Assembly (NCBI RefSeq): GCF_022759505.1
Contig: NZ_CP094289.1
Coordinates: 1,054,001-1,118,000 of the forward strand
Direction of reading: 5' to 3'
Source of the DNA: Georgenia sp. TF02-10
GTDB lineage: Bacteria > Actinomycetota > Actinomycetes > Actinomycetales > Actinomycetaceae
Length of the DNA stretch: 64,000 bases
Under the pieces are notes generated by a model. That model was not told where the DNA came from. It saw only the letters and a list, made by a program, of their open reading frames with translations, and ran no database searches. The number at the start of each line of letters is the position of its first letter. Position 1 is the first letter of the stretch. Below, in pieces: positions 8,633 through 26,272 of this stretch. A program made the position numbers and the translations under genes.

Positions 8633-10309
8633 TCAGGCCCGGGCGGGGCCCGGCGGTCGCCGTCGCAGGGCTCGGCCGCTGCCGGTCCGCCGCCGCCGAG
8701 CCCGGGCGTCCCACCAGCGCACCGGCAGGGTCAGCGCCTCGACGACGAGGCGGGGCCGGCGCGCCAGCCCGGTGCGCCAGCCGTCGTCCCGCCGGACCGG
8801 AATCGCACCGGTCCGGAACCGCATCGGATTCCCGGCGACGGTGTGGTGCGCGGTCAGCGACACCTCCTCGTCCCGGACGTGGGCCAGGTCCGCGGCGGAG
8901 GCGGTAATGCCGCAGAAGGCCAGCACCTCCGCCACCACCTCGCGGGGCCGGGCGACGAAGTCCTCGTAGTGGACCGTCAGCAGCGGCACGCCCAGCAGCG
9001 CCAGGCCCCGCATGAGCACCCGGTAGGACAGCCAGTCCAGCGCGACCCGCCCGGCCGAGTACTGCGGCATGAGCGTCTCCGCCCCGGTCACCTCCGGCCG
9101 CACGACCGCCTTGGACCAGGAGAACGCCACCCCGCGCGGGTCGCGCACCACGAGCACGCACCGCAGCCGCACCGACGCGTCCCGCAGCAGGTAGCCGTAG
9201 GCGGGGTGCTTGCTGGAGTCGACCAGCAGCCCGCCGCCGGCGGCCTCGTGCGCCCCCCGGTACAGGGCGTCGAGGTGGCGCAGCAGGCGCTGGCGCTTCA
9301 GCCGCCACGCGGGCCGCAGGCCCCCGCTGACCAGCGCCGGCAGGTTCCGGCCGCGGACGACGTCGGCCCGGTCGGCCACCCGGGCGGCGGCGTCCAGGCT
9401 CGGCCACCCGCCGAACGCCCGCCGGCCGACCTCCGTCCAGAACGGGCACCGGGAGAACGGCTGCCCGCAGCCGCAGAGCTGGTCCTGGTCCACCCCCCGC
9501 TCCCACAGGTGGAGCACCTCGCCGAGGCCGGTCACCCCGGGGACCTCGGCCAGGCACCGCTCGAGCAGCGTCGACCCGCTGCGCCCCGCGCCGCCGATCA
9601 TGAGCACCGGCGGCCCGCTCCCGGGGGTGCGGGACAGGATGCCGTCGGCCACCCGGGCGACGTTGGCGACGGCGCGGGCCACCTCCGCCTCGTGCCGCGG
9701 GTCCGGGCCGACGGCGGCCACGGCCGGGTCGGCGAGCACGGCGTCGAGGGCGCGGCCGAGGGCCGCCTCGTCCTCGGCGAGCAGCAGCCGGCCCTCCGCG
9801 GCCCAACGGCGGCTGAACGCCACCTGGTGGTCGTCGACGACCTCGTCCAGGCGAGCCAGCCGCGGCACCACGACCGGCAGGCGTCCTGCCGCGCGGCTCT
9901 CCACGACCGACATCGGTCCGCCCTGCACGACGACGGCGTCCGCGGCGGCCATCAGGCGCAGCAGCTCCTCGTGCGGGAGGAAGTCCACGCCCATGGCCGT
10001 GACCGGCGGCGCGGCCGGGCCGTGCTGGATAAGGCAGTCGACCGGGCGGGTCGCGGCCCACGCGTCCACCCACCGGACCAGCCGGTCGAACCGGTGATGG
10101 TCCGAGCCGACGGTCACCAGCACGAGCGGGCGGGTGCCGGGCAGCTGCGCCGTGTCCGTCGCCGGCGCGGCCGACGTGGCGGGGCCGGCCGCCGCACGCC
10201 CGCCCGAGGTCGCCGGCGTCGAGGCGGCCGCCGTCACTCCGTCGCCCGCCGCCGTCGAGGTAGCCGTCGTCGGCGCGGGCCGCGCCGGCCCTGGCTGACC
10301 AACGCTCAC
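8633..10309 (-). CDS. Fusion of PssE/Alg13-like glycosyltransferase subunit and PAPS-dependent sulfotransferase
   Basis: The GTG at 10309 overlaps the stop of the PssD gene (GTGA), giving 558 residues. After an Ala/Thr-rich leader, residues about 62–220 form an Alg13/PssE-like domain: LVLVTVGSD at the start, then FLPHEELLRLMAAADAVVV and QGGPMSVVES, the GT28-type donor-binding region. Residues about 232–500 are a sulfotransferase: the 5'-phosphosulfate loop GGAGRSGSTLLE (about 239–250), LVDSSKHP, and the 3'-phosphate motif VVRDPRGVAFSWSK (about 387–400). PssD and PssE together normally form a membrane-associated glycosyltransferase for capsular sugars. The fusion suggests that the sugar added by this pair, or the glycan just made, is sulfated by the same polypeptide. 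Both halves keep their main motifs. I do not know this fusion from described capsule systems; the claim of novelty is inference. Confidence 0.85.
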   Translation of the reverse strand: MSVGQPGPARPAPTTATSTAAGDGVTAAASTPATSGGRAAAGPATSAAPATDTAQLPGTRPLVLVTVGSDHHRFDRLVRWVDAWAATRPVDCLIQHGPAAPPVTAMGVDFLPHEELLRLMAAADAVVVQGGPMSVVESRAAGRLPVVVPRLARLDEVVDDHQVAFSRRWAAEGRLLLAEDEAALGRALDAVLADPAVAAVGPDPRHEAEVARAVANVARVADGILSRTPGSGPPVLMIGGAGRSGSTLLERCLAEVPGVTGLGEVLHLWERGVDQDQLCGCGQPFSRCPFWTEVGRRAFGGWPSLDAAARVADRADVVRGRNLPALVSGGLRPAWRLKRQRLLRHLDALYRGAHEAAGGGLLVDSSKHPAYGYLLRDASVRLRCVLVVRDPRGVAFSWSKAVVRPEVTGAETLMPQYSAGRVALDWLSYRVLMRGLALLGVPLLTVHYEDFVARPREVVAEVLAFCGITASAADLAHVRDEEVSLTAHHTVAGNPMRFRTGAIPVRRDDGWRTGLARRPRLVVEALTLPVRWWDARARRRRTGSGRALRRRPPGPARA

Positions 10310-10782
10310 AGCAGCGCCCCGACATACTCCGCGCCGGGGTAGCGGCGCAACTGCTCGGGCCACTGCACGCAGAACGCCGTGCTCAGCGGCCGGCACATCC
10401 GCCCCGTCATGGTCGCGGAGTCGACCCGGTCGAAGACCTCCAGGTACAGCGTCGGGATCCGCCGCCAGGCCGCGACGAGGAAGAACGGGGCGGCCACCCC
10501 GGCCCCGGTCGAGACGACCAGCGCCGGCCGCCGGTCGGCGAGGACCTTTCGCGCGAGCGCGAGGTTCCGGGCGGCGTTGGCGGCGTTCCGGGTGGTCGGG
10601 TGGTAGGCGTGCACGACGTCCTCACCGGCCAGGGCCGAGCGGGCGTCCGCCTTGTCGAACGTGACCCAGGTCCGCGGGTACCTCGACCACCAGGGGCGCA
10701 GCACCATGAGCTGGGCGAGGTGCCCGCCGGTCGAGGCGACCAGCAGCACCCGCTGCTCCCCCTCAGGGGCCGACGTCGTCAT
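10306..10782 (-). CDS. pssD: PssD-like (Alg14-like) glycosyltransferase membrane subunit
   Basis: A 158-residue protein of the usual length for PssD/Alg14. It opens with VLLVASTGGHLAQLM, the Rossmann-type glycine loop of the family, and continues with TWVTFDKAD, LVVSTGAGVAAPFF and ARNLALARKVL. Alg14-like subunits bind the membrane and recruit the Alg13-like catalytic partner, whose gene follows immediately with a 4-base overlap. The pair would add one sugar to a lipid-linked intermediate on the inner face of the membrane. It is transcribed away from the Wzz gene, with a 99-base divergent intergenic region (10783–10881) that must hold both promoters. The acceptor and donor sugars are not known. 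Confidence 0.85.
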   Translation of the reverse strand: MTTSAPEGEQRVLLVASTGGHLAQLMVLRPWWSRYPRTWVTFDKADARSALAGEDVVHAYHPTTRNAANAARNLALARKVLADRRPALVVSTGAGVAAPFFLVAAWRRIPTLYLEVFDRVDSATMTGRMCRPLSTAFCVQWPEQLRRYPGAEYVGALL

Positions 10783-10881: not shown

Positions 10882-12660
10882 ATGGCTTCAGCGGGCACCT
10901 CTCGTCCGGACTTCTACCGCAACGCGCTGCGGCACCGGTGGCTCACGATCGTGCTGGCCGCCCTGCTCGGGGTCCTCGCCGGGGCGGCGGCCGTGCTGAC
11001 CGACAACCAGCAGTACCGCTCCACCGCGGTCGTCTTCCTCCAGCCGCTGGTCGGCAACCCCTACTCGCCGACCACCCCCGAGACGCGTCAGGAGCAGCTC
11101 GCCGCGCTCACCACGGAGGCCGGGCTCGTGCTCTCCGACGCCGTCGTGCGGCAGGCCCGCGAGGACGCCGCGGCGGACGGGACCGAGCTGGGCGAGGACG
11201 CCCCGCAGCGCACCACCACGGAGGTGCCCTCGAACTCTCAGGTGGTCCGGATCTCCTTCGCGGCGCCGGACCCGGTGGGGGCGCAGGTCGGCGCGCAGGC
11301 CCTCGCCGAGTCCTACCTGGAGTACCGGCAGGAGCGGGCCGCGGAGATCGTGGGGGAGCAGGTCGTCCGGCTCGACGAGCAGATCGACTCCCTGGAGGCG
11401 CTGCAGGAGGAGACCTCGACGGAGCTGGCCACGGCGCTCGGGACGTCCGATCCCGCCGCCCCCTCCGCCGACGTGGTGAACCTCCAGGAGCAGGTCCGGA
11501 TCTACGCCGGCCAGCTCGGCCAGCTCCGGATCGAGCGGTCCAACGCCGAGAGCACCGCCCTGACCGCCGGGGAGATCATCAGCCCGGCGGTGCAGCCGGA
11601 GGAGCCCGAGGGCATCCCGCCCCTGCTCATCGGGCTCGGCCTCGCGGTCAGCCTGCTCGTCGGCGGCCTGATCCTCGCCCTGGTCCAGGAGCACCTGGAC
11701 ACCCGGGTCCGGACCGCCGACGACCTTGCCGACCTCGACGTCCCGGTGCTCGGCCCGGTCCCCGCGTCCTCCACCACGGGCCGGGCGGACGAGGAGTACC
11801 AGGTGGTGCGCAACGCCCTGCGGCTGGGCACCGGAGCGCGGGAGGTTCGTTGCGTCGTCGGTGCGGGCCCCGACGTGGCGACCCTGGAGCCCGCGCTGGG
11901 CCTGGCGTCCGCCGCAGGGGCTGCCGGGCGGTCGGTCGTGCTGGTGCTCGCCGGCCCTGCCGTCCCGGCGGAGCTGTCCGGGCCGGGGCTGAGCGACGTG
12001 CTGGCCGGTGCGGTGACCGCCGACGCCGCCGTCCGTGGCGTCGGGCCGCAGGTCCAGGTCCTGCCGTCCGGGCCGGACCCCGAGGCGCTGGCGCACCCGG
12101 TCCAGCAGCCGGCGTTCGCCGAGCTCGTGCGGGGCCTGGCCGCGCGGCACGACCTCGTCCTGCTCGTCGGACCGAGCGCCCACTCCGCCACTGGCAGCGC
12201 CCTGGCCCGGGTCGCCGACGGCACCGTCGTGGTCGCCGCCACTGGGCTCACCCGGGAGCCCGAGGTCGTCGAGGCCGCCCGCCTGCTGACGGAGGTCGGG
12301 GCCCGCTGGGACGGCGTCCTGCTCGTCGCGCCGCCGCGGCGCAGCCGCCGCGGCGGCGCCCCGGCCGGCCCCCCGCTGACGGGCGCCCACGAGGGCGGCC
12401 CGGGCGGCGGCTGGCAGCCGGTGGGCGCTGCCGGCCCGGCCGGGGAGCGAGGCGCCGCCGGGGGCCTGCCGGGTGACGGTGAGCCGAGCCGGTCGGGGGA
12501 CCGGCCGGACGGCGCGGGGCCGAGCGCGGCCGGGGCCGAGCCGGGCGCCGCCGTGCCCCGCGCGGCGGGGGAGCGGCCGGACGTCGGCGGATCCGGCCCG
12601 GACGGCGGCGAGCCCGGCGCGGCGGAGACTTCTGCGGCCGGCACCGGCCACGGGCGTTGA
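10882..12660 (+). CDS. Wzz-type chain-length regulator with degenerate BY-kinase-like half
   Basis: The ATG at 10882 follows GAAGGAAGA. The first 270 residues are a Wzz/CpsC-type region: a membrane helix at about 21–40 (LTIVLAALLGVLAGAAAVL), a periplasmic part with coiled-coil heptads, and a second helix near 250–270 (LLIGLGLAVSLLVGGLILAL). The remaining 320 residues resemble the cytoplasmic ATPase half of bacterial tyrosine kinases, but the Walker A position reads VGAGPDVATLEPA with no GKS/T, so ATP binding is probably lost. The end is an Ala/Gly/Pro-rich tail without a tyrosine cluster. It heads the polysaccharide operon and would set chain length. The next gene starts inside its stop codon (TTGA). 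Confidence 0.82.
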   Translation: MASAGTSRPDFYRNALRHRWLTIVLAALLGVLAGAAAVLTDNQQYRSTAVVFLQPLVGNPYSPTTPETRQEQLAALTTEAGLVLSDAVVRQAREDAAADGTELGEDAPQRTTTEVPSNSQVVRISFAAPDPVGAQVGAQALAESYLEYRQERAAEIVGEQVVRLDEQIDSLEALQEETSTELATALGTSDPAAPSADVVNLQEQVRIYAGQLGQLRIERSNAESTALTAGEIISPAVQPEEPEGIPPLLIGLGLAVSLLVGGLILALVQEHLDTRVRTADDLADLDVPVLGPVPASSTTGRADEEYQVVRNALRLGTGAREVRCVVGAGPDVATLEPALGLASAAGAAGRSVVLVLAGPAVPAELSGPGLSDVLAGAVTADAAVRGVGPQVQVLPSGPDPEALAHPVQQPAFAELVRGLAARHDLVLLVGPSAHSATGSALARVADGTVVVAATGLTREPEVVEAARLLTEVGARWDGVLLVAPPRRSRRGGAPAGPPLTGAHEGGPGGGWQPVGAAGPAGERGAAGGLPGDGEPSRSGDRPDGAGPSAAGAEPGAAVPRAAGERPDVGGSGPDGGEPGAAETSAAGTGHGR

Positions 12661-14414
12661 CCCGGTCCGCCGGTCGTGGCGCCCGGCCCGGGGCTAGGCC
12701 CGATCGCCGCCGCGGGGCACGGGAGCTCGACGCGGCCGGGCGGGCGGCGATCCGCGGGATCGCCCGGGCGGGCAGCGCCAACCTCGCCGCGGCGGGGGTG
12801 GGCGCGGTCGCGAACCTGGCCATCGTCGTCGTCGTCACCCGCAGCGTGCCGGCGACGCTGGCCGGCTCGCTGTTCGCGGCCACCTCGGTCTTCCTGGTGG
12901 CGCTGTCCCTCGTCGAGGTAGGGGTCGACCAGGGGTTCGTGCGGTTCCACGCCCGGAACATCGCCCTGGGCCGGCAGTGGCGGAACGGTCCGATCCGGCG
13001 CTCCGGCTTCCGGCTGGTGCTCGCCGTGAGCGGGGTCGCCGCGCTGGTGGGCCTGGTCCTGGCCGAGCCCGTGGCCGGCCTCATCGCCGACGAGGAGACG
13101 AGCCGGGCGGCGGCGGACATGCTGCGCGTGCTCGCGCTCGCCCTGCCGGTGGCCGCGTGCTACGACCTCGTCCTGGCCGTCACCCGCGGACGGTCCCGGA
13201 TGCGGCCGACCATCCTGGTCGAACGCATCGGCCGGCCGGTGCTCCAGGTCGGGCTGCTCGCCGTGGCCGCCGCGGCGGCCGCACCGGCCCTCTGGCTGGC
13301 CGTGGCCTGGACGCTGCCCTACCTCCTCGGCCTGCTCGCCGGGGTCGCCGCCCTGCGCCGGAGCAGCGACGAGCCGGACGCGGCCGCGGCCGGCCCGGTG
13401 GACGGGGCCCCGGCACTGGTGGAACCGCCCGTCCCGGCCGCGGACGTGCCCATCCCGGCGGTGCCTGAGCCGCCCGCGGACGGCACCGCTGAGCCACCCA
13501 CCGACGACACCGCCCAGCCGCGCACCGCCCAGCCGCCCACCGACGGTGCCGCCGGCTCCGACCCGGGGGTCGCCCAGTTCTGGCGGTTCACCCTGCCCCG
13601 GGGCGCCGCCCGGTTCTTCCAGGTGGCCCTGCAGCGGGCGGACATCGCCATCGTGGCGGCGCTCGCGGGCCCGGCGGCCAGCGCGGTGTACACGGCGGCG
13701 ACCCGGTTCCTCGTGGTCGGCCAGCTCGCGACGCAGGCGCTGCAGCAGGTGAGCGAGCCCCAGCTGGCTCGGCTGATCGCGGTGGACAGCCGGGACGCGG
13801 TCCGGTCGGTGTACCACCAGCTCACCCTGTGGAGCGTGGCGCTGACCTGGCCGCTCTACCTCCTCGTCGCGGTCCTCGCCCCCGTGCTGCTGGAGCTGAT
13901 CTTCGGCGCCGGGTACGCCGCCGGCGGAGCCAGCCTGACGATCCTCGCCCTGACCATGCTGGTGGCCACCGCCATGGGACCGGTCGACGTCCTCCTGCTC
14001 ATGGGCGGGCGCAGCGTGCTGTCGCTGACCAACACGGGCACGGCGCTCGTCGTGGACGTCGTCGGCTGCCTCCTGCTCGTCCCCCGGCTCGGTGTCGCCG
14101 GCGCCGCCGTCTCCTGGGCGGCGGCGATCCTGGTCCGGAACCTCCTCGGTGCCGTCCAGGTCGCCCGGCACCTGCGGATCACCCCGCTGGCGACCACGGC
14201 GCTCGGCATGGGCGCCGCCTGCCTCGCGCTGTTCGGGCTCCTGCCGTGGGCCGCCGATGCGGCCTGGGGGAGCACCAACGCGGTGCTCGTCGCCGCCGGG
14301 GTCGGGGCGGCGGGCTACGCCGTGATCCTGTGGCGGATGTCCGACGCCCTCCGCCTGCGGACGATCCTGCAGCGCCCACGACCGGCGGACCGCCGCCCTG
14401 GCCCACGGTCGTGA
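12657..14414 (+). CDS. Wzx-type lipid-linked oligosaccharide flippase
   Basis: A 585-residue polytopic membrane protein of the MOP exporter superfamily. It has about 14 hydrophobic helices in two bundles, with the typical late motif of glycine-rich helices around FGAGYAAGGASLTILAL. A TTG start at 12657 overlaps the preceding stop (TTGA), which fits the overlap pattern of the whole operon. Between the bundles, residues about 235–305 form a Pro/Asp/Thr-rich, probably disordered cytoplasmic loop that most flippases lack. The role inferred is transfer of the lipid-linked repeat unit across the membrane, before polymerisation by the next gene product. The name rests on topology and position, since flippases diverge strongly in sequence. 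Confidence 0.82.
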   Translation: MTRSAGRGARPGARPDRRRGARELDAAGRAAIRGIARAGSANLAAAGVGAVANLAIVVVVTRSVPATLAGSLFAATSVFLVALSLVEVGVDQGFVRFHARNIALGRQWRNGPIRRSGFRLVLAVSGVAALVGLVLAEPVAGLIADEETSRAAADMLRVLALALPVAACYDLVLAVTRGRSRMRPTILVERIGRPVLQVGLLAVAAAAAAPALWLAVAWTLPYLLGLLAGVAALRRSSDEPDAAAAGPVDGAPALVEPPVPAADVPIPAVPEPPADGTAEPPTDDTAQPRTAQPPTDGAAGSDPGVAQFWRFTLPRGAARFFQVALQRADIAIVAALAGPAASAVYTAATRFLVVGQLATQALQQVSEPQLARLIAVDSRDAVRSVYHQLTLWSVALTWPLYLLVAVLAPVLLELIFGAGYAAGGASLTILALTMLVATAMGPVDVLLLMGGRSVLSLTNTGTALVVDVVGCLLLVPRLGVAGAAVSWAAAILVRNLLGAVQVARHLRITPLATTALGMGAACLALFGLLPWAADAAWGSTNAVLVAAGVGAAGYAVILWRMSDALRLRTILQRPRPADRRPGPRS

Positions 14415-14461: not shown

Positions 14462-16129
14462 GTGAAACACCCCGCCCCGCCGCGGGAGGTGGGTCACAAT
14501 GAGCCGGTCACTGCCAGGACGGCCCGGGAGGTTGGGTTGGCGCACGCCGTTCGCACGCCGGCCCCCGCCCTCGTGACGACCGTCCCCGAGACGACCCTGC
14601 CTCGGGCGTCCAGCACCCGGCACGCCGGCTCGTCCCGATCGCCGCGGACCAGGACGGCCGGCGGCTCCCGGCCCCGCAGCGTGCGCGTGCTCACCGTGTT
14701 CTTCGTCGGGTTCCCCCTGTGGTGGCTGGTCGGTCTTGGCCAGCTCGGCCACCTCCTCGTCGCGGTGGTGCTTGCCGGCTACCTGCTCAAGGCGCGGCGG
14801 GTGGCGGTGCCGGCGGGGTTCGGCCTCTGGCTGCTCTTCCTGGTGGTGCTCGCCGTCAGCGCCGTGACCATCTGGAGCCCGATCCCGGGGCTGGTCCCCG
14901 CCGTCGGCGGGGAGCGGATCCTCACCTACGGGTTCTGGGCGGCGTGGTTCCTCACGGCGATGATCTTCCTGCTCTACCTGGGCAACGTCCCCGAGGCCCA
15001 CCTGCCCACCCACCGCGTGGTGGACATGATGGCCTGGCTCTTCCTCATCACGGTGGCGGGCGGGTATGCCGGGCAGTTCCTCTGGCACGTCGACTTCCCG
15101 TCGCTGCTCGAGGTCGTGCTGCCCGCGTCGGTGCGGGACATCAACCTGCTCTCGATCATGATCCATCCCGGCCTGGCCCAGGTCCAGGACATCCTCGGCT
15201 TCGAGGCCCCCCGGCCCAAGGCGCCGTGGACCTACGCCAACGGCTGGGGGGCCAGCTACGGCCTGCTCCTGCCCTTCTTCGTCCTCGCCTTCACCGGGCC
15301 GCGGGCGAGCGTCGCCCGGCGGGTCGCGTTCGTGCCGCTGCTGCTGCTGGCCATCCCACCGGTGATCTTCACGCTCAACCGCGGGCTCTGGGCCGGGCTC
15401 GCGGTGATGGCCGGCTACGTCGCTATCCGGCTGGCCCTGCGGGGTCGCTTCCTCGTCCTGGCCCTCCTCGCCGGGCTGTCCGTGGCGGCGGGCGTGATCC
15501 TCGCCCGGACCCCGCTTGCCGAGATCATCCTCGCCCGCCTGGACAACCCGCACAGCAACCAGGGCCGGACGAACCTGGCGGTCACCGCGGTCCGCACCGT
15601 GCTGGAGCACTCCCCGCTGGTGGGCCTGGGAACCCCGCGCGCCCTCGAGGGCAACTTCTTCTCCGCCGCCGGCGGGGCGACCGAGAGCTGCCCGCAGTGC
15701 TCACCGCCCCAGCTCGGCACGCAGGGCTCGTTCTGGTTCCTCCTCTTCACCACCGGCCTGCTCGGTGCGGGGTTCTTCTGCGCGTTCCTCCTCCGGCGCT
15801 ACGCCAGCGGGATGCGGCAGGGGACGAGCCTGGGGATCGCGATGACCGCGACCGGGATCTACCTCGCGGTCGTCATCTGGGTGTACGACATCGTCGGGTC
15901 CTCCCTGGTCACCGTGATGATCGCCCTCGCCCTGCTGTGGCGGGCCGAGCGTGCGGGGACGGGCGCCCGAGACGGTACCGGGGGGAGCAGCCGCGACGGC
16001 CGCAGCAGCGCGGGCAGTATCGCCGACGGCGACGGCGACCGCGTCGGCGACGGTCATCCCGATGGCGGCGCTGCCGGTGCCGGCATCTGGCGGGAGCCTG
16101 CGGGCGTCGTTCGGGCAGGTCCGCGATGA
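14462..16129 (+). CDS. O-antigen ligase/polymerase-like (Wzy) membrane protein
   Basis: About 555 residues with some eleven membrane helices. The large external loop before the last helices contains HSNQGRTNL and HSPLVGLGTPR, the kind of loop found in the Wzy_C/O-antigen ligase family. The start chosen is GTG 14462, which has a perfect ribosome site (GGAGGT, 14450–14455). GTG 14489 and GTG 14573 are alternatives; the first helix begins only near base 14690. It would polymerise repeat units delivered by the flippase. The Ser/Asp/Gly-rich C-terminal tail ends in an ATGA overlap with the following kinase-like gene. Confidence 0.8.
   Translation: MKHPAPPREVGHNEPVTARTAREVGLAHAVRTPAPALVTTVPETTLPRASSTRHAGSSRSPRTRTAGGSRPRSVRVLTVFFVGFPLWWLVGLGQLGHLLVAVVLAGYLLKARRVAVPAGFGLWLLFLVVLAVSAVTIWSPIPGLVPAVGGERILTYGFWAAWFLTAMIFLLYLGNVPEAHLPTHRVVDMMAWLFLITVAGGYAGQFLWHVDFPSLLEVVLPASVRDINLLSIMIHPGLAQVQDILGFEAPRPKAPWTYANGWGASYGLLLPFFVLAFTGPRASVARRVAFVPLLLLAIPPVIFTLNRGLWAGLAVMAGYVAIRLALRGRFLVLALLAGLSVAAGVILARTPLAEIILARLDNPHSNQGRTNLAVTAVRTVLEHSPLVGLGTPRALEGNFFSAAGGATESCPQCSPPQLGTQGSFWFLLFTTGLLGAGFFCAFLLRRYASGMRQGTSLGIAMTATGIYLAVVIWVYDIVGSSLVTVMIALALLWRAERAGTGARDGTGGSSRDGRSSAGSIADGDGDRVGDGHPDGGAAGAGIWREPAGVVRAGPR
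14499..14576 (+). CDS. Possible 25-codon leader ORF overlapping the polymerase start
   Basis: An ATG at 14499 lies 8 bases after GGGAGGT (14484–14490) in a different frame from the polymerase. It runs 25 codons and stops at TGA 14574–14576, overlapping the alternative polymerase start GTG 14573 as GTGA. This could be a leader peptide that couples translation to the polymerase, or a chance ORF inside the polymerase gene. No homology is recognised. Confidence 0.2.
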   Translation: MSRSLPGRPGRLGWRTPFARRPPPS

Positions 16130-17478
16130 CGCCGAAGCAGCCGGCGCAGGTCGAGGACCTCCGCGCCACCGTGCAGGCACTCTTCCCTGGCGCCCCCGTC
16201 GCCTACGGCCGGCTGGCCGGCGACGCCGAGGGGTTCCGCCTCGTCCCCGGGCCCCGCCGCCCGCGCCTGCTGGTCGCCGCCGACGCCCCGCACGCCGCCG
16301 TCGGCGCCGTCGACCGACCGAGCGCGAACGACACGACCCGCCAGGCCGCCCTGCGCCGGGTGGCTGCCAAGGTCCTGCGGGCCCCGCACCTCGCCGCGGC
16401 CGTGATGCCCCGCGGCCTGGCCGTGGGCCGGTCGGCCGAGGAGTCGGTCAGCGACTACCTGGCGGAGGTCGTCGGCGGCGAGGTGCGGATCTCCTTGGCG
16501 ATCGGCTCCCGACGGGCGAACCGCAAGCCCGTCCTCAACGTCCACCGCGTCGACGGGACGGAGGTCGGCTACGCCAAGGTCGGGCTGACCGACCTGGCCA
16601 ACGAGCTGATCGACCACGAGGCCGCCGTCCTCGCCGACCTCGAGCGCGACCGGCCCGCCCGCTTCGTCGCGCCGCGGCTGCTCCACCACGGCCGGTGGCG
16701 CGGGTCGAGCGTGGTGCTGATGGAGAGCCTGCGCCCGGCCGGCCCGCCCGCGGCGCACGGCGTCCCGCTCGACGCCGTCGCCGAGCTGACCGCGCGCGGC
16801 GGCCTTGATCGGCAACGGCTGGCCGACACCGACTGGCTGACGCGGATCACCGCCGAGGGAGCGGGGCACGCCGGGAACGAGCACGCCGCGGCCGATAACG
16901 GCGGGGCCGCGGACGGCGGGTCCGGGCAGGTCGACGCCGAGCCCGAGCTCGTCGAGCTGGCGCGGCGCTACCGGGACCAGCTCGGCGACGTCGACCTGCC
17001 GGTGGGCCGGTGGCACGGCGACCTCGGCCCCTGGAACATGGCGTGGCAGGGGCGGACCCCGATGATCTGGGACTGGGAGCGCTGCGCGGCAGGCGTGCCC
17101 GCCGGCATCGACGCCGTCCACTTCACCTGCCACCAAGCCCTCCGGGCCGTCGGGGACCTGCCGCGCGCCCGAGCCGCGCTGACCGGCGCCGGCGCGGCGG
17201 CACTCCGTGGGGTCCTGGCCCGGCTGCCCGGCGGCGGGCCGCCGTCGGACCGGCTGGTGCAGGCCCTGGTGGCCGGCTACCTGCTGGCGATCGCGGCACG
17301 CTTCACCGCCGATGCCCGCCGCCCGGGCGGGGACGCGGTCGGGCGCCTCGCCCGCTGGCACCTCGGCGTGCTGCGCGACCGCCTCGACGAGGAACGAGAC
17401 CGGCGCGACGGGGAACGCGACCGGCGCGACGAGAAGCGAGAGCGGCGCGACGAGGAAGAGGTGCACAGATGGAGCTGA
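16126..17478 (+). CDS. Kinase-like phosphotransferase (APH/protein-kinase fold)
   Basis: A 450-residue protein starting in an ATGA overlap with the polymerase. The C-terminal half has the catalytic loop of the aminoglycoside phosphotransferase fold, WHGDLGPWN (H297, D299, N304), followed by the metal-binding aspartate in IWDWE (about 314–318). The N-terminal half is a divergent nucleotide lobe with VLNVHRVDG and YAKVG, the latter lysine being a candidate ATP ligand. Family members phosphorylate small molecules, sugars or lipid heads. In this operon, phosphorylation of a sugar, of the lipid carrier or of an envelope component is plausible, while antibiotic resistance is unlikely. The tail (from residue 421) is a 7-residue charged repeat, DEERDRR. 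Confidence 0.72.
   Translation: MTPKQPAQVEDLRATVQALFPGAPVAYGRLAGDAEGFRLVPGPRRPRLLVAADAPHAAVGAVDRPSANDTTRQAALRRVAAKVLRAPHLAAAVMPRGLAVGRSAEESVSDYLAEVVGGEVRISLAIGSRRANRKPVLNVHRVDGTEVGYAKVGLTDLANELIDHEAAVLADLERDRPARFVAPRLLHHGRWRGSSVVLMESLRPAGPPAAHGVPLDAVAELTARGGLDRQRLADTDWLTRITAEGAGHAGNEHAAADNGGAADGGSGQVDAEPELVELARRYRDQLGDVDLPVGRWHGDLGPWNMAWQGRTPMIWDWERCAAGVPAGIDAVHFTCHQALRAVGDLPRARAALTGAGAAALRGVLARLPGGGPPSDRLVQALVAGYLLAIAARFTADARRPGGDAVGRLARWHLGVLRDRLDEERDRRDGERDRRDEKRERRDEEEVHRWS
17386..17457 (+). repeat. 21-bp in-frame repeat encoding a charged tail
   Basis: About three and a half copies of a 21-base unit encode DEERDRR-like heptads at the end of the kinase-like protein, just before the next start codon at 17469. 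The heptads could form a short charged helix. Confidence 0.75.
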
Positions 17479-18329
17479 CGGTGCGGGTGCGGTCGGCCGC
17501 GCGGCGGGTGGTGCGGTCCGGGTACACGGTGCTGGGCGAGGCGACCGCGGACGCCCGGATGCGGCCGGGGTTCATCATCGCCGGTGCGCAGCGGTGCGGG
17601 ACCACCAGCCTCTTCCGGATGCTGGCGGCGCACCCCGACGTCCGGCCGCCGGCCTACACCAAGGGGATCCACTACTTCGACACCGCCGAGCGGTACCGGC
17701 GCGGGCCGCGCTTCTACGGCGCCCACTTCCCGCTCGCGCCCCGCGGCCGGGACCACCACCACCTGGTTACCGGGGAGGCGAGCCCCTACTACGTCTTCCA
17801 CCCGCTGGCCGCCGAGCGGATCGCCCGGGAGGTGCCCGACGCCCGGGTGATCGTGCTGCTCCGCGACCCGGTCGAGCGGGCGTTCTCCGCGCACAAGCAG
17901 GAGACCTGGCGGGGGTTCGAGACCCTCTCCTTCGAGGAGGCGCTGGCGGCGGAGCCGGACCGGCTCGCCGGCGAGGTCGAGCGCATGGTTGCCGACCCGG
18001 CGTACCAGTCTTTCGCCCACCAGCACTACGCCTATGTCGGACGGGGCCGGTACGCCGCCCAGCTCACCCGGATGTTCGACGCCGTCGGTCGGGACCAGGT
18101 CCTCGTGCTCGACGCCGACGACTTCTTCGCGGACCCGCAGCAGTACTGGTCCGAGGTGCTGGCCCACGTCGGGCTCCGGGATGTCCCGCTGGAGGCCGCC
18201 CCGAAGGCGAACGCCCGGCCGAGCTCGCCGATGCCGGCGACCGCCCGGGCGCGGCTGGAGGAGGCGTTCGCCGACTCCGACGAGGAGCTCACCCGGATCC
18301 TCGGGCGCGTGCCGAGCTGGCGACGATGA
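17469..18329 (+). CDS. PAPS-dependent sulfotransferase
   Basis: A 286-residue protein with both PAPS signatures: the 5'-phosphosulfate loop IIAGAQRCGTTSLF (about 35–48) and the 3'-phosphate motif VIVLLRDPVERAFSAH (about 127–142). EASPYY and KGIHYFD match the heparan/chondroitin-type and Stf0-like carbohydrate sulfotransferase group. It would move sulfate from PAPS to a hydroxyl of the polysaccharide or its precursor in the cytoplasm. The ATG at 17469 lies 10 bases inside the preceding gene, and the stop overlaps the next start (ATGA). With cysCDN and cysQ nearby, it is the second sulfotransferase domain of the locus. Confidence 0.93.
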   Translation: MELTVRVRSAARRVVRSGYTVLGEATADARMRPGFIIAGAQRCGTTSLFRMLAAHPDVRPPAYTKGIHYFDTAERYRRGPRFYGAHFPLAPRGRDHHHLVTGEASPYYVFHPLAAERIAREVPDARVIVLLRDPVERAFSAHKQETWRGFETLSFEEALAAEPDRLAGEVERMVADPAYQSFAHQHYAYVGRGRYAAQLTRMFDAVGRDQVLVLDADDFFADPQQYWSEVLAHVGLRDVPLEAAPKANARPSSPMPATARARLEEAFADSDEELTRILGRVPSWRR

Positions 18330-19315
18330 CGCCCGTCCCGGACCCACACCCGCCCGCCGGGGCGCCGCCCGGCGCGGAGCGGACGCTGGCCTCCTACGCC
18401 CTGTTCGTCCGCCGGCACCGCCGCCTGCTCGTGGCCGCCGCCCTGGTCGGCGTCGTCCTCGGCCTGCTCGTCCAGCTGAGCAAGCCCGAGCGGTTCACCT
18501 CCTCGGCCGACGTCGTGCTGGTCTCGACGACGACGCGCGGCGGCGGGAGCGGGGAGTACCGCGACACGACCATCGACTCCGCGCTCCAGCAGCTCCGCTC
18601 GCAGGAGGTGCTGGGCCGGGCGGCGGCGCGGATGGACTACCCCGGCGGGTCGGCCGGGCTGGGCCGGGACCTCATCGCCCGACCCGTCCCCAACTCGCGC
18701 ATCGTCCGGCTGTCCGTCTCCGCGCTCGCACCGGCGACGGCGGTCGAGGCCGTCACGAATGTGGTGGACAGTCTCCTCGAGGTCCGGCGCAGCGCGATCG
18801 AGGCCGAGACGCAGCGCCGCAAGCAGTCGGTCGGGGGTCAGCTCGCCGCCGTCAACCGCGAGCTCGACCGGCTGAACCTCGTCGTGGTCCAGGGTGAGGA
18901 CCCGGCCGGCAGCAACGACCGGACGGTCGGCGGCCGCTTCCTCATCGAGCAGCGCGGGTACCTGCGCGGCGAGCAGGCCGCGCTCGCGACGCTGCGGCCC
19001 GACCCCGGCTACGTCGCCCAGCCGCCTACCGTGCCGACCGACGGGGCCCGCACCGGGCTGGCGGTCACGATGGCGTCCACGCTGACCGTCGCCGTCGTCG
19101 CCGCGGTCACCCTGGCGGCCGCGCGCAGCTGGCTCCGCGGGCCCGCCGAGCGCCCGGGCAGCACGGGGCCGGACGCCGTCGGCCCGGCCGACGTCGGACC
19201 GGCCGCCGTCGGCTTGCAGGGCCCGGGGAACCCCGACCAGGGGAGCACCGACCCGCGGACCCACGACCCAGGGACGCCCCACCCAGGCACCCCCGACCCA
19301 GGAGGACCGAGATGA
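18326..19315 (+). CDS. Second Wzz-type polysaccharide chain-length determinant
   Basis: A 329-residue protein with an N-terminal cytoplasmic stretch, a first helix at about 35–51 (LLVAAALVGVVLGLLVQL), a periplasmic region with a helical segment rich in Arg/Glu/Gln (about 145–185), and a second helix near 245–262. There is no ATPase half; the tail is a Pro/Gly/Asp-rich repeat (DPGTPHPGTPDPG). Wzz-family proteins control chain length by interacting with the Wzy polymerase. Having two such proteins in one locus suggests either two modal lengths or a division of labour. The start and stop overlap both neighbours (ATGA). Confidence 0.82.
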   Translation: MTPVPDPHPPAGAPPGAERTLASYALFVRRHRRLLVAAALVGVVLGLLVQLSKPERFTSSADVVLVSTTTRGGGSGEYRDTTIDSALQQLRSQEVLGRAAARMDYPGGSAGLGRDLIARPVPNSRIVRLSVSALAPATAVEAVTNVVDSLLEVRRSAIEAETQRRKQSVGGQLAAVNRELDRLNLVVVQGEDPAGSNDRTVGGRFLIEQRGYLRGEQAALATLRPDPGYVAQPPTVPTDGARTGLAVTMASTLTVAVVAAVTLAAARSWLRGPAERPGSTGPDAVGPADVGPAAVGLQGPGNPDQGSTDPRTHDPGTPHPGTPDPGGPR

Positions 19316-20232
19316 GCGCCCCGGCGCCCGGGATCGACGTCATCATCGCGACCAAGGACCGCCGCGAGCTGCTGCTGAAGGCGGTGGACGGCATCCTCGC
19401 CCAGGACTACCCCGGGGAGATCCGGCTGACGATCGTCTTCGACCAGGTCCCGCCCGACCCGTCGCTCGAGCGCGCCGCCGCCAACCGGTCGGTCCGGGTG
19501 CTGCCGAACTCCCGGACGCCCGGGCTGGCTGGCGGCCGGAACACCGGCCTGCTCGCGGCCGACCGCCGGCTCGTGGCGTTCTGCGACGACGACGACGTCT
19601 GGCGGCCGGCGAAGGCCGCCGCCCAGGTGGCCCGGATGCGGGACGACGGCGCGCAGGGGTGCGTCACCGGCATCCTCGTGCACACCCAGGGCCGTCAGGT
19701 CCCGCGGGTCCCGGCGGTGCCCCGGGTTACCCCCGGCGCGCTGCACCAGGGTCGGCTCACCGGCGCCCACCCGTCGAGCTACCTCTTCGACCGGGCCTGG
19801 CTGCTCGGGTCGGTGGGGCTGGTGGACGAGGAGCTGCCGTCCGGCTACGGCGAGGACTTCGACCTGCTGCTGCGCTGCGCGCAGGCCGGCACGGTCACCG
19901 TGGTGCCCGAGCCGCTGGTCGACGTGCTGTGGCACCCCGGCTCCTTCTTCACCCAGCGCTGGCAGGGCATGGCCGACGGCCTGGGGTACCTGCTGGCCAA
20001 GCACCCCGGCCTGACCACCGACCGCAAGGGCTACGCCTGGATGGAGGGCCAGCGCGCGTTCGCACTGGCCGCCGGCGGGGGGCGGCGGGCGGAGGCGCTG
20101 CGCGCGGCGGCCCGCTCGCTGCGGCACAACGGTCGGGAGCCGCGCGGCGTGCTCGCCGCCGTCGTCGCGCTCGGCCTGGTCAGCCCGGAGCGGGTGATGC
20201 GGGTGCTCAACGCGCGCGGCCACGGGATCTAG
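19312..20232 (+). CDS. Family 2 glycosyltransferase
   Basis: 306 residues beginning DVIIATKDRRELLLKAV, a GT-A nucleotide-sugar fold. The acidic motif FCDDDDVW (about 83–90) supplies the metal-binding DxD, and GEDFDLLLR (about 180–188) is the typical catalytic ED region of GT2. It would add a sugar to the lipid-linked repeat unit at the inner membrane face. AGGAGGA lies before the ATG at 19312, which overlaps the previous stop. It is the last gene of the seven-gene overlapping run and converges with cysC. Donor and linkage are unknown. Confidence 0.9.
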   Translation: MSAPAPGIDVIIATKDRRELLLKAVDGILAQDYPGEIRLTIVFDQVPPDPSLERAAANRSVRVLPNSRTPGLAGGRNTGLLAADRRLVAFCDDDDVWRPAKAAAQVARMRDDGAQGCVTGILVHTQGRQVPRVPAVPRVTPGALHQGRLTGAHPSSYLFDRAWLLGSVGLVDEELPSGYGEDFDLLLRCAQAGTVTVVPEPLVDVLWHPGSFFTQRWQGMADGLGYLLAKHPGLTTDRKGYAWMEGQRAFALAAGGGRRAEALRAAARSLRHNGREPRGVLAAVVALGLVSPERVMRVLNARGHGI

Positions 20233-20268: not shown

Positions 20269-21567
20269 CTACCCGACGAGCACGTCCCGGCCGCGCAGCA
20301 GCGCGGCGACCTCCCCGAGCACCTCCGCCACCGGCCGGCCGGTGGTGTCCACCACCAGGTCGGCGTCGGCCGGCGGCTCGTAGGGGGAGCTGATGCCGGT
20401 GAAGTCCGGGACCTCCCCGCGCCGGGCCCGCGCGTACAGGCCCTTGCGGTCCCGCCGCTCGCACTCGGCCAGCGGCGTCGCCACGTGCACGAGGACGAAC
20501 GCCCCGCCCGCGTCCGCCACCATCGCCCGGACCTGCCGGCGGGTGCTGTCGAACGGCGCGATCGGGCTGCAGATCGCCAGGCCGCCGTGCCGGGCGATCT
20601 CGGCCGCCACCCACCCGATGCGGCGCACGTTCACCTCGCGGTCGGCCACCGAGAACGACAGGCCGGCGGAGAGGTTGCGGCGCACGACGTCGCCGTCGAG
20701 CAGCGACACCGTCCTCGCGCCCTCCTCCACCACCAGGTCGTGCAGCGCCCGCGCCAGCGTGGACTTGCCGCTCCCGGACAGCCCGGTGAACAGCACGACG
20801 GCGCCGCGGCGGGCCCCGCCGGCCCGGACCGCGGCGGCGACGGCGGCCGGGAGCGGGCCGCGGCCGGCGACCTCGAGCACCTCCCCGGGGGCGTAGGCGG
20901 CGAGCACCCGGCGGCGCAGGCGGGCGTTGGCCGGGCCCGCGCCGGCGGCGGGGAGGGGGACGGCGACGACCCGCGCGTCCGGCACCAGCTCGGCCGCGCG
21001 CACGGTGGCGCGGAGCAGGTCGGCGGTGGCGGCGGCGCCACCCGGACCGTGCCCGGCCAGGGCGAGGAGGACGACGGTGCGGCCGGCCCGGGCGGCGGTG
21101 ACGGCCGTGAGGTCCTCCTCGCTCAGCGGCCGGGCGACCGGCACGGTCAGCGCGTCCGCCGGGACCTGCGCCCGCACGGCGGCGGGGTCGAGGTAGAGCC
21201 GGTCGAACGGGCGGCTGCCGCGCCCGCCGAGGTGGCGCACGGTGCCGACGACGCCGACCCCGCCGGCGTGGTCGTAGGTCTGGGTCACGGTCACGACGGC
21301 GAGCGGGACCCCCTCGGCGTCGGTGAGCTCGACCGCCGCCGGCCCCGCGGCCGCCGTCGTCCCGGCGCCTCGCGCGGGCCCGGCGCCTCCCGCCGGCCCG
21401 ACCCCGGCCGCCGCGACGACGTCGGCCGGCAGGACCAGCACCGGCCCCTCGTCAGGGGCGGCGTACCCGGCGCCCGGACCGAGCGCCCCGGCCCGGAGCA
21501 GGTCGAGCACGTCCAGCTCCGGCGCGGACAGGGCGTGCCGGGGCAGCGGCGGCGCCGGGCTCGTCAT
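20269..21567 (-). CDS. cysC: Adenylyl-sulfate (APS) kinase with degenerate ATP-sulfurylase-like N-terminal domain
   Basis: The C-terminal part (about 255–432) is a complete APS kinase: P-loop GLSGSGKS (262–269), LLDGDVVRRNLS, REVNVRRIGW, KGLYARARRGE and DFTGISSPYE. It phosphorylates APS to PAPS, the donor for the two sulfotransferases. The first 250 residues begin LPRHALSAPELDVLDLLRAG and have LVLPADVVAA, as in the N-terminal PUA-like and catalytic parts of ATP sulfurylase. The active-site QTRNP and HxGH motifs are not evident, so ATP sulfurylase activity, supplied here by CysD/CysN, is probably lost. The ATG at 21567 is chosen because the upstream extension is low-complexity. It faces cysD across a 179-base region. 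Confidence 0.88.
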   Translation of the reverse strand: MTSPAPPLPRHALSAPELDVLDLLRAGALGPGAGYAAPDEGPVLVLPADVVAAAGVGPAGGAGPARGAGTTAAAGPAAVELTDAEGVPLAVVTVTQTYDHAGGVGVVGTVRHLGGRGSRPFDRLYLDPAAVRAQVPADALTVPVARPLSEEDLTAVTAARAGRTVVLLALAGHGPGGAAATADLLRATVRAAELVPDARVVAVPLPAAGAGPANARLRRRVLAAYAPGEVLEVAGRGPLPAAVAAAVRAGGARRGAVVLFTGLSGSGKSTLARALHDLVVEEGARTVSLLDGDVVRRNLSAGLSFSVADREVNVRRIGWVAAEIARHGGLAICSPIAPFDSTRRQVRAMVADAGGAFVLVHVATPLAECERRDRKGLYARARRGEVPDFTGISSPYEPPADADLVVDTTGRPVAEVLGEVAALLRGRDVLVG

Positions 21568-21746: not shown

Positions 21747-22661
21747 ATGTTGCGTACCCACGGCGACTACCGGCTGAGCCAGCTCGACGAGCTCGAGGCG
21801 GAGTCCATCCACATCTTCCGGGAGGTCGCCGCCGAGTTCGAGCGGCCGGTGCTCCTGTTCTCCGGGGGCAAGGACTCCATCACCATGCTGCGGCTCGCCG
21901 AGAAGGCGTTCTACCCGGCGAAGATCCCGTTCCCGGTGCTCCAGATCGACACCGGGCTGGACTTCCCGGAGGTGCTGCAGACCCGGGACCGCTGGGTGGA
22001 GCGGCTCGGGCTGCGCCTCCTCGTCGCCTCCGTGGAGGAGGCCATCCGCACCGGCGTCGTCGTCGACGACGGCCGGACCAGCCGGAACCGGCTGCAGACC
22101 GGGACCCTGCTGAACGCGATCGAGGAGCACGGCTTTACCGCGGCCTTCGGCGGCGGTCGCCGCGACGAGGAGAAGGCCCGGGCCAAGGAGCGGGTGTACT
22201 CCCACCGGGACGAGTTCGGCCAGTGGGACCCCAAGAACCAGCGCCCGGAGCTGTGGTCGCTGTACAACGGCCGGCTGCACGCCGGGGAGCACATGCGGAT
22301 CTTCCCGCTGTCGAACTGGACCGAGCTCGACGTGTGGCACTACATCGACCGGGAGGGCATCGACATCCCGTCGATCTACTTCGCCCACCCGCGGCGGGTG
22401 TTCCGCCGGGACGGGATGCTGCTGTCCGAGAGCCCGCTGAACGGCCTGCGCGACGGCGAGCGGGTCGAGGAGCGGACCGTGCGGTTCCGCACGGTCGGGG
22501 ACCTGACCCTGACCGGGTGCGTGGAGTCCACCGCGGCGACCGTCCCGGAGATCATCGCCGAGGTCGCCGTCGCCCGGGTCACCGAGCGCGGCGCGACCCG
22601 CGGGGACGACCGCTTCTCCGAGGCGGCCATGGAAGACCGCAAGCGAGAGGGCTACTTCTGA
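21747..22661 (+). CDS. cysD: Sulfate adenylyltransferase subunit 2
   Basis: 304 residues, the full CysD length. The PP-loop LFSGGKDSITMLRLA (about 37–51), DTGLDFPEV and the C-terminal RFRTVGDLTLTGCVES are family hallmarks. With CysN it makes APS from sulfate and ATP, driven by GTP hydrolysis. Its stop overlaps cysN by one base (TGATG), and cysQ follows in the same way, so cysD-cysN-cysQ form one operon. No sulfite or PAPS reductase gene is nearby, which points to sulfation rather than assimilation. Confidence 0.97.
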   Translation: MLRTHGDYRLSQLDELEAESIHIFREVAAEFERPVLLFSGGKDSITMLRLAEKAFYPAKIPFPVLQIDTGLDFPEVLQTRDRWVERLGLRLLVASVEEAIRTGVVVDDGRTSRNRLQTGTLLNAIEEHGFTAAFGGGRRDEEKARAKERVYSHRDEFGQWDPKNQRPELWSLYNGRLHAGEHMRIFPLSNWTELDVWHYIDREGIDIPSIYFAHPRRVFRRDGMLLSESPLNGLRDGERVEERTVRFRTVGDLTLTGCVESTAATVPEIIAEVAVARVTERGATRGDDRFSEAAMEDRKREGYF

Positions 22662-23911
22662 TGGACCTGCTCAGGCTCGCCACGGCCGGCTCGGTCGACG
22701 ACGGCAAGTCCACCCTCATCGGTCGGCTGCTGATGGACTCCAAGTCGATCTTCGAGGACCAGCTCGAGGCCGTCCGGGCGACGTCGGCCGCCCGGGGCTA
22801 CGACTACACCGACCTCGCCCTGCTCACCGACGGGCTGCGGTCCGAGCGCGAGCAGGGCATCACCATCGACGTCGCCTACCGGTACTTCGCCACGCCGGTC
22901 CGGAAGTTCATCATCGCGGACACCCCCGGGCACGTGCAGTACACCCGCAACATGGTCACCGGCGCCTCCACCGCCGACCTGGGCCTGGTGCTGGTCGACG
23001 CCCGGCAGGGCCTGACCGAGCAGTCCCGGCGGCACGCGGTGCTGCTCTCCCTGCTGCGGGTGCCGCACCTGGTGCTGGCGGTGAACAAGATGGACCTCGT
23101 CGACTTCGACGAGGGCGTCTTCCGGCGCATCTACGACGAGTTCACCGCCTTCGCGACCAAGCTCAACATCCCGGACCTGCAGGTGATCCCCATCTCCGCC
23201 CTGCAGGGCGACAACGTGGTCACCAGGTCCGAGCGGATGCCCTGGTACGACGGCGCCTCCCTCATGCACCACCTCGAGCACCTGCACGTCGCCTCCGACC
23301 GCGACCTCATCGACACCCGGCTGCCCGTGCAGTACGTCATCCGGCCGCACTCGGACGACCACCACGACTACCGCGGCTACGCCGGCCAGGTCGCCGGCGG
23401 GGTGCTCAAGCCCGGCGACGAGGTCCTCGTCCTGCCGTCCGGGCTGACCACCCGGGTGGCCGGGATCGACCTCTTCGACCGCGAGGTGGCCGAGGCCTTC
23501 CCGCCGATGTCCGTCACCGTCCGGCTCGAGGACGACCTGGACGTCTCCCGCGGGGACATGATCTGCCGGCCTCGCAACGCCCCGACCCCGGCGCAGAACA
23601 TCGACGCCACGGTGTTCTGGATGACCGGGGCGCCGCTGCGGGTGGGCCGCAAGCTCGCGATCAAGCACACCACCCGCACCGCCCGCACGGTGATCCGGGA
23701 GATCCAGTACCGCCTGGACGTCAACACCCTGCACCGGGACCTGGAGGCCACCGAGCTCGGCCTGAACGAGATCGGCCGGGTGCAGCTGCGCACCACGGTG
23801 CCGCTGCTGTGCGACACCTACGAGCAGAACCGCACCACCGGCTCCTTCATCCTCGTCGACGAGGCCACCGGCGGGACGGTCGGCGCGGGCACCATCCTCG
23901 GGGCGAGCTGA
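22661..23911 (+). CDS. cysN: Sulfate adenylyltransferase GTPase subunit 1
   Basis: 416 residues with an EF-Tu-like GTPase domain: G1 GSVDDGKST (10–18), the switch region REQGITIDVAYRYF, G3 DTPGHVQYTRNM, and G4 NKMDLV. Beta-barrel domains 2 and 3 follow. It activates CysD to make APS. Unlike the fused CysNC of mycobacteria it has no APS kinase domain; that function is in the separate cysC gene across the divergent region. One-base overlaps link it to cysD and cysQ. Confidence 0.97.
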   Translation: MDLLRLATAGSVDDGKSTLIGRLLMDSKSIFEDQLEAVRATSAARGYDYTDLALLTDGLRSEREQGITIDVAYRYFATPVRKFIIADTPGHVQYTRNMVTGASTADLGLVLVDARQGLTEQSRRHAVLLSLLRVPHLVLAVNKMDLVDFDEGVFRRIYDEFTAFATKLNIPDLQVIPISALQGDNVVTRSERMPWYDGASLMHHLEHLHVASDRDLIDTRLPVQYVIRPHSDDHHDYRGYAGQVAGGVLKPGDEVLVLPSGLTTRVAGIDLFDREVAEAFPPMSVTVRLEDDLDVSRGDMICRPRNAPTPAQNIDATVFWMTGAPLRVGRKLAIKHTTRTARTVIREIQYRLDVNTLHRDLEATELGLNEIGRVQLRTTVPLLCDTYEQNRTTGSFILVDEATGGTVGAGTILGAS

Positions 23912-24955: not shown

Positions 24956-26272
24956 TCAGGGCCGGCCGGCCGCCCGGTAGGTCCAGCCGGCGGCGCGCCA
25001 CGCGGCCGGGTCCAGCACGTTGCGGCCGTCGATCATCCGGCGGGCGGCGACCACGTCGCCGAAGGTCACCGGGTCCAGCTGGCGGTACTGCGCCCACTCG
25101 GTGGCCAGCAGGACGACGTCGGCGCCGGCCGCGGCCTCCTCGGGGGTGGCCGCGAACGCCAGGGTGGGCCAGGCCCGCTCGGCATTGGCGATGGCCGCCG
25201 GGTCGGTGACGCGCACGTGGGCGCCCTGGAGCTGGAGCTGGGCGGCGACGTTGAGGGCGGGGGAGTCCCGGACGTCGTCGGAGCTGGGCTTGAAGGCGGC
25301 GCCGAGGACGGCCACGGTGCGCCCCGCGACGGACCCGCCGCACACCTCCCGGGCCAGGTCCACCATCCGCACCCGGCGGCGCATGTTGATCGCGTCCACC
25401 TCGCGCAGGAAGCTCAGCGCCTGGTCCACGCCCAGCTCCCCGGCCCGGGCCATGAAGGCGCGGATGTCCTTGGGCAGGCAGCCGCCGCCGAAGCCCAGGC
25501 CGGCGCCGAGGAACTTCCGGCCGATGCGGTCGTCGTAGCCGATGGCGTCGGCCAGGGCGACGACGTCGGCGCCGGTCGCCTCGCACAGCTCGGCCATCGC
25601 GTTGATGAAGGAGATCTTGGTGGCCAGGAAGGAGTTGGCGGCGACCTTGACCAGCTCGGCGGTGGCGTAGTCGGCCACGACCTTGGGGATGCCCTCGGCC
25701 AGCGGCGTCGCGTACACCTCGTCCAGCGCCGCCCGGGCGTGGTCGGCGGCGGCGGGCTCGGCGGGCAGGCCGTAGACGAACCGGTCGGGGTGGATGGTGT
25801 CGTTCACGGCGTGCCCCTCGCGGAGGAACTCGGGGTTCCAGGCGACGACGGCGCCCGGGGCCCGGGCGGCGACCTGCTCGGCGATCCGGGCGGCGGTGCC
25901 CACCGGGACGGTCGACTTGCCGACCAGCACGTCGCCGTCGGCGAGGTGGGGGAGCAGGCCGGTGACCGCGGCGTCGACGTAGGTCAGGTCGGCCGCGTAG
26001 CTGCCGCGCTGCTGCGGGGTGCCCACGCAGAGGAAGTGCAGCTGGGCGCCGGCGGCGTCGGCGATGTTAGGGCTGAACCGCAGCCGGCCGCTCGCCACGC
26101 CCTCGCGGAGCGCCTCGGGCAGGCCGGGCTCGAAGAACGGGGCCTCCCCGGCGGCGAGCAGCTCCACCTTCGCCGCGTCGGTGTCGATGCCGACCACGTC
26201 GTGGCCGAGCAGCGCCATCGAGCTGGCGTGGACGGCGCCGAGGTAGCCGCAGCCGATCACCGAGACACGCAT
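24956..26272 (-). CDS. UDP-glucose 6-dehydrogenase
   Basis: 438 residues with the usual three parts: NAD-binding Rossmann fold MRVSVIGCGYLGAVHA, the central helices with WNPEFLREG, and the catalytic region GFGGGCLPKDI with cysteine 265. The C-terminal domain carries GAAFKPSSDDVRDSP. It oxidises UDP-glucose to UDP-glucuronate; a GDP-mannose dehydrogenase is the main alternative, as the families are close. AGGAGG precedes the ATG at 26272. Next to the polysaccharide genes it would provide glucuronic acid, making the product acidic in addition to sulfated. Confidence 0.93.
   Translation of the reverse strand: MRVSVIGCGYLGAVHASSMALLGHDVVGIDTDAAKVELLAAGEAPFFEPGLPEALREGVASGRLRFSPNIADAAGAQLHFLCVGTPQQRGSYAADLTYVDAAVTGLLPHLADGDVLVGKSTVPVGTAARIAEQVAARAPGAVVAWNPEFLREGHAVNDTIHPDRFVYGLPAEPAAADHARAALDEVYATPLAEGIPKVVADYATAELVKVAANSFLATKISFINAMAELCEATGADVVALADAIGYDDRIGRKFLGAGLGFGGGCLPKDIRAFMARAGELGVDQALSFLREVDAINMRRRVRMVDLAREVCGGSVAGRTVAVLGAAFKPSSDDVRDSPALNVAAQLQLQGAHVRVTDPAAIANAERAWPTLAFAATPEEAAAGADVVLLATEWAQYRQLDPVTFGDVVAARRMIDGRNVLDPAAWRAAGWTYRAAGRP

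Follow-up and report, generated by a model that had tools for sequence, protein, structure and literature searches.

A PssE-like glycosyltransferase domain fused to a sulfotransferase in a putative sulfated-polysaccharide gene cluster of Georgenia and other actinobacteria

We analyzed a stretch of 64,000 nucleotides from Georgenia sp. TF02-10 (hereafter the window; assembly GCF_022759505.1, contig NZ_CP094289.1, positions 1,054,001 to 1,118,000), and all coordinates below are those of the window. At 8633..10309 on the minus strand lies a gene encoding a 558-residue protein, the first half of which resembles PssE and the second half a sulfotransferase, and its GTG start overlaps the stop codon of pssD by 4 bp (GTGA). 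The initial annotation had located this span correctly but had left out the strand; the plus strand of 8633-10309 gives a reading unrelated to the fusion protein, and the motifs quoted there (VTVGSD, QGGPMSVVES, GGAGRSGST and RDPRGVAFSWS) are all present in the 558-residue minus-strand product. The list of open reading frames also offers an alternative start (8633..10396), but we prefer the GTG at 10309 because the order pssD then fusion, with a 4-bp GTGA/ATGA overlap, is kept in 16 of 16 fused loci including the window. The GC content of the region is ~75% and many long antisense frames are listed; since long frames come cheaply at such a composition, the open frame alone proves little, and the fusion is credible on account of 15 further loci, 86 invariant residues and a confident two-domain model. 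In that model (AlphaFold2, 37 sequences), the mean pLDDT is 85.6 and exceeds 90 across most of both halves, so that each half folds confidently and neither is absent, while residues 1-50 are of low complexity, disordered, and mostly missing from the homologues. The proposed assignment of a GT28 C-terminal domain and a sulfotransferase domain likewise stands, as Pfam Glyco_tran_28_C and Sulfotransfer_3 both score above their curated cut-offs. The fusion of a PssE-like half with a sulfotransferase is thus confirmed as real.

The PssE/Alg13-type half (residues ~63-200, 9710..10123, minus strand) corresponds to the C-terminal part of a GT-B glycosyltransferase, which binds the UDP-sugar donor. Glyco_tran_28_C (PF04101) covers residues 63-175 (E 2.4e-6). 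The NCBIfam model for PssE matched this half with E 1.7e-11 and 44 bits against an equivalog cut-off of 120 bits, and the WelK model, through its C-terminal half, with 52 bits against 400; because these scores are far under the equivalog cut-offs, we call this half PssE-like rather than a certified PssE. Foldseek placed it with the UDP-sugar-binding domains of UDP-glucuronosyltransferases and with other GT-B enzymes, and a profile of the fused family matched the C-terminal sequence of MurG. Residues G68, D70, H72, G130-G131-P132 and H161-Q162 are invariant in the 15 full-length fused proteins.

The adjoining gene (10306..10782, minus strand, 158 aa) encodes a PssD/Alg14-type protein, the acceptor-side half, which resembles the N-terminal part of MurG. 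It scored above the cut-off of Pfam Alg14 and, with 104 bits (E 7.5e-30), just below the 110-bit cut-off of NCBIfam PssD; the partner gene is therefore immediately upstream, as had been claimed. Its model matched the N-terminal half of MurG (fold E 2e-8) and, since the fused-family profile matches the C-terminal half, PssD and the PssE half together look like one MurG-type enzyme split over two chains. The donor-binding and acceptor-side halves are similarly distributed over two proteins in eukaryotic Alg13-Alg14. Eukaryotic Alg14 carries a membrane anchor, whereas the PssD model begins at the first beta strand and has no N-terminal transmembrane helix, and a sulfotransferase is attached only in the system described here. 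The suggested tethering of the sulfotransferase to the membrane through PssD is possible on this model, although any membrane contact would then be peripheral, as in MurG.

The second half (residues ~230-541, 8687..9622, minus strand) is, by sequence, a predicted PAPS-dependent sulfotransferase (PF13469/PF00685). Sulfotransfer_3 matched it with E 5e-13 and 50.2 bits against a cut-off of 27, and Sulfotransfer_1 also scored above its curated cut-off. It carries the 5'-PSB loop GGAGRSGST, E264, K367, the 3'-PB motif RDPRGVAFSWS and the motif HTVAGNPMRF. Aligning the 15 full-length fused proteins showed 86 invariant positions over both halves. Among those of the sulfotransferase half are the 5'-phosphosulfate loop (G240, G242-R243-S244-G245 and T247), E264, K367-H368, R389-D390 and the HTVAGNPMRF motif. 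In the profile alignment, G263-E264 lines up with the GE of the TPST2 segment that was matched, and E264 is the candidate catalytic base by analogy with that family. The nearest folds found by Foldseek were TPST2 and other tyrosylprotein sulfotransferases, followed by Stf1 of M. tuberculosis and the sulfotransferase domain of olefin synthase, and the TM-scores to the closest solved structures, those of protein-tyrosine sulfotransferases, are modest. We also noted three invariant cysteines in this half, C279, C281 and C288 (CGCG...C, window ~9446-9475, minus strand).

The genes around the fusion look built for a sulfated surface polysaccharide. Divergent from pssD, a gene for a Wzz/tyrosine-kinase-like chain-length protein (10882..12660) opens a group on the plus strand that contains a Wzx-type flippase (12657..14414 from the start of the open reading frame, a later start at 12798 being possible); a candidate Wzy polymerase or O-antigen-ligase-like membrane protein (14681..16129), suggested by a weak NCBIfam RfaL match and by syntenic homologues; a conserved cluster protein with no Pfam match and with homologues in most loci (16126..17478), which, by position only, may correspond to the kinase-like protein WpsI of Actinoplanes; a second, heparan-type sulfotransferase (17469..18329; PF13469/PF00685; motif RPGFIIAGAQRCGTTSL); and a GT2 glycosyltransferase (19312..20232), the homologue of which stands directly behind the PssE-sulfotransferase gene in many other loci. 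A UDP-glucose 6-dehydrogenase type enzyme, which would supply UDP-glucuronate, is encoded at 24956..26272 on the minus strand; it was not found at the other loci and was rejected as a conserved neighbour. No phosphoglycosyltransferase was found within the cluster in the window, and the three in the genome lie elsewhere. In other genera, too, homologues of several of the cluster genes are found near the sulfotransferase gene.

The cluster also encodes sulfate activation: an APS kinase (CysC; 20269..21567, minus strand), the small and large subunits of ATP sulfurylase, CysD (21747..22661) and CysN (22661..23911), and an inositol-monophosphatase-family protein (PF00459; 23911..24789) that is CysQ-like, a role as PAP phosphatase being suggested by its position; the last three are on the plus strand. 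The APS kinase has ~250 extra N-terminal residues without a Pfam match, and direct repeats with a 27-bp unit, a multiple of three, occupy 23928-24035 at the start of the CysQ-like gene. Family searches of the genome, which is estimated to be 98% complete, found one APS kinase and one PF01507 protein, namely the cluster gene and the cluster CysD, and two Sulfotransfer_3 matches, both of them cluster genes. Neither a sulfite reductase (NIR_SIR domain) nor a PAPS reductase, that is, a second PF01507 protein, was found in these searches, and at that completeness the absence of both enzymes is likely rather than certain. Because they were not found, the PAPS made here probably serves sulfation and not cysteine synthesis, and the presence of sulfate-activation genes and a second sulfotransferase in the cluster, none of which the initial annotation mentioned, makes the sulfation reading a strong one.

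The initial annotation had looked to homologues with the same domain order for support, and a scan of contigs that recovered 68 loci showed a single frame running across both halves in 15 further actinobacterial loci from several families, all behind pssD. These are from two Sporichthyaceae MAGs, one Frankiaceae MAG, six Catellatospora, one Cellulomonas, one Jiangellales MAG and four other actinobacterial MAGs, and one of them (L025) has a frame break near the C-terminus. The linker is conserved in length: in the 15 aligned proteins, the invariant glycines on either side of it are separated by 61-80 residues. In four other loci (L035, L040, L046 and L054), pssE and the sulfotransferase gene are separate and overlap by 4 bp (ATGA/GTGA) at the very point where the fusion joins them, and in L052 and L055 they are ~125-145 bp apart with the starts as called. 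Such separate overlapping genes are what one would expect if the window had two neighbours joined by an assembly or sequencing error, but the chance of this is negligible: the 15 homologous fusions, which keep one frame over the junction and a linker of conserved length in several families, contradict it as a general explanation. In a class-wide search, both halves shared an open frame in 8 of 395 genomes, one of them the genome of the window; the other seven are apparently the same as those in the 68-locus scan and are not counted as extra. The sulfotransferase alone was found in many more genomes, a PssE-like gene often lying no more than a few kilobases away on that contig, and no second full-length fusion was found among 213 genomes of the window's own family.

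In trees built for the sulfotransferase half and for PssE plus PssD, the window lies near L013 and L014, and unfused rows are scattered among fused ones. Although the trees were quick and have some long branches, the AU test rejected all fused rows as one clade both for the sulfotransferase half (p-AU 3e-32) and for PssE plus PssD (p-AU 2e-4), ruling out a single origin and implying that fusion or fission happened more than once; the counts do not tell fusion from fission. Other gene arrangements were also seen. In L055 (8671-10611) and L062 (7944-9920), Pfam shows the sulfotransferase fused to GT2, normally the following gene, and homology alone makes the same probable for L064 (7803-9917). 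In L075 (8058-9998), and probably in L076 and L078, a phosphoglycosyltransferase (Bac_transf) domain is what PssE is fused to. In two Pseudokineococcus loci (L033:13211-16905 and L034:13112-16905), the genes cysQ, cysD, cysN, pssD and pssE follow one another in the same direction and overlap slightly, which ties PssDE to sulfate activation. In six loci from Geodermatophilaceae, where the sulfotransferase stands alone, there is a WecG/TagA-type GT26 and no PssDE; such a GT26 was not found in any PssDE locus examined, and this exclusion could be the effect of a single lineage.

The fusion, both folds, the conservation of the motifs, the gene context and the status of the cluster's APS kinase and CysD as the only ones found in the genome are directly established; catalysis, the acceptor, the order of steps and the identity of the sugar are inferred. 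We favor, with a probability of roughly 70%, a mechanism in which a lipid-linked repeat unit receives an early sugar from PssD and the fusion protein and is sulfated by the attached domain before it is exported through Wzx/Wzy. A priming phosphoglycosyltransferase, one of the three encoded elsewhere in the genome, would start the unit; the PssE half with PssD would then transfer an early, probably the second, sugar onto the polyprenyl-diphosphate-linked unit at the cytoplasmic face of the membrane, and the sulfotransferase would sulfate the intermediate while the complex holds it. The GT2 enzyme and the second sulfotransferase would complete the unit, and Wzx, Wzy and Wzz would export and polymerize it into a sulfated exopolysaccharide, with PAPS supplied by CysD, CysN and the APS kinase of the cluster and PAP cleared by the CysQ-like phosphatase. 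The early position of the sugar is suggested by analogy with rhizobial PssDE, which adds GlcA as the second sugar to Glc-PP-undecaprenol (PMC7589315). This precedent, the weak WelK match and the adjoining UDP-glucose dehydrogenase make glucuronate the leading guess, an uncertain one because the other loci yielded no such dehydrogenase. The split operons, which overlap at the fusion junction, together with the sulfotransferase-GT2 fusions elsewhere tie PssE, the sulfotransferase and GT2 to consecutive steps. The earlier idea that a single protein could add a sugar and sulfate it is plausible as to the combined role, but the sugar step would need PssD too. Fusion is not required for sulfation, since most relatives of the sulfotransferase are unfused and some clusters lack PssDE.

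The same sulfotransferase-GT2 fusions also bear on a different reading, in which both domains work but at different steps, the fusion merely setting stoichiometry or recruiting the sulfotransferase, and the target is a sugar added by another enzyme, such as GT2, or a later intermediate. In keeping with this, the sulfotransferase is joined to GT2 and not to PssE in L055, L062 and probably L064, and most genomes encode it as a free protein, among them some whose clusters have a WecG/TagA-type GT26 but no PssDE. We nevertheless consider it unlikely: pssE and the sulfotransferase gene are adjacent or fused across many lineages, the fused proteins arose or split more than once, and the two halves group alike (the window with L013 and L014, L019 with L049). 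Far less probable still is a non-polysaccharide target such as protein tyrosine or a small lipid. The tyrosylprotein sulfotransferases, Stf1 and olefin synthase domain among the nearest folds would fit such a target, but the likeness to tyrosylprotein sulfotransferases reflects a shared catalytic scaffold, and the flippase, glycosyltransferases and chain-length protein place the gene in a polysaccharide cluster. A wider claim extends the favored mechanism, namely that one complex physically couples glycosylation and sulfation on the lipid-linked unit and belongs to a pathway that is widespread in actinobacteria and for the most part undescribed, with dedicated sulfate activation and a polysaccharide possibly containing glucuronate; we put this tentatively, at slightly under even odds.

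By gene content, the closest published counterpart is the wps-1 cluster of Actinoplanes missouriensis. A 2026 paper proposed that its product is a sulfated polysaccharide required for the formation of sporangia, a process that all single-gene deletions in the cluster but one disturb (PMC13390465). As published, wps-1 contains Wzx, Wzy and Wzz, a GT2, two sulfotransferases of different families and a kinase-like protein, and the window has Wzx, Wzy (on weak evidence), Wzz, GT2 and two sulfotransferases of this set. However, WpsB is described as a separate sulfotransferase without a glycosyltransferase domain, the second glycosyltransferase of wps-1 is, like that of the Geodermatophilaceae loci, a GT26 (WecG/TagA) and not PssDE, and the text of the paper mentions neither PssE nor a fusion (PMC13390465). 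PssD-PssE of Rhizobium leguminosarum is likewise a split MurG-like enzyme encoded by overlapping neighbor genes (PMC7589315, PMC9961541), but neither it nor the fused sphingan enzymes WelK/SpsK have an attached sulfotransferase, and sequence similarity is low. The synechan cluster of Synechocystis, another bacterial locus for a sulfated exopolysaccharide, likewise contains sulfotransferases and glycosyltransferases; it is cyanobacterial and is likened here by gene content, not sequence (PMC8205485). In the open-access papers covered by our search, we found no description of a PssE- or glycosyltransferase-sulfotransferase fusion. The enzyme families themselves are known; what we describe is a real, conserved and repeatedly formed fusion in a predicted sulfated-polysaccharide cluster.

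Sulfated surface polysaccharides are a kind of polymer thought rare in bacteria, reported, according to the Actinoplanes paper, from cyanobacteria only before that work (PMC13390465). The cluster, together with the failure to find a sulfite reductase, yields a clear, testable prediction: such polymers should be produced by other actinobacteria as well. The fusion, for its part, suggests the lipid-linked unit, before export, as the stage at which sulfate is attached. The enzymes are also candidates for the production of defined sulfated glycans. Elsewhere in the window, a large protein (1683-5378) that matches Malectin, PKD and beta-propeller domains has homologues near the cluster in several other genera, and direct repeats with a 75-bp unit, a multiple of three, lie inside an ABC transporter gene (7703-7897).
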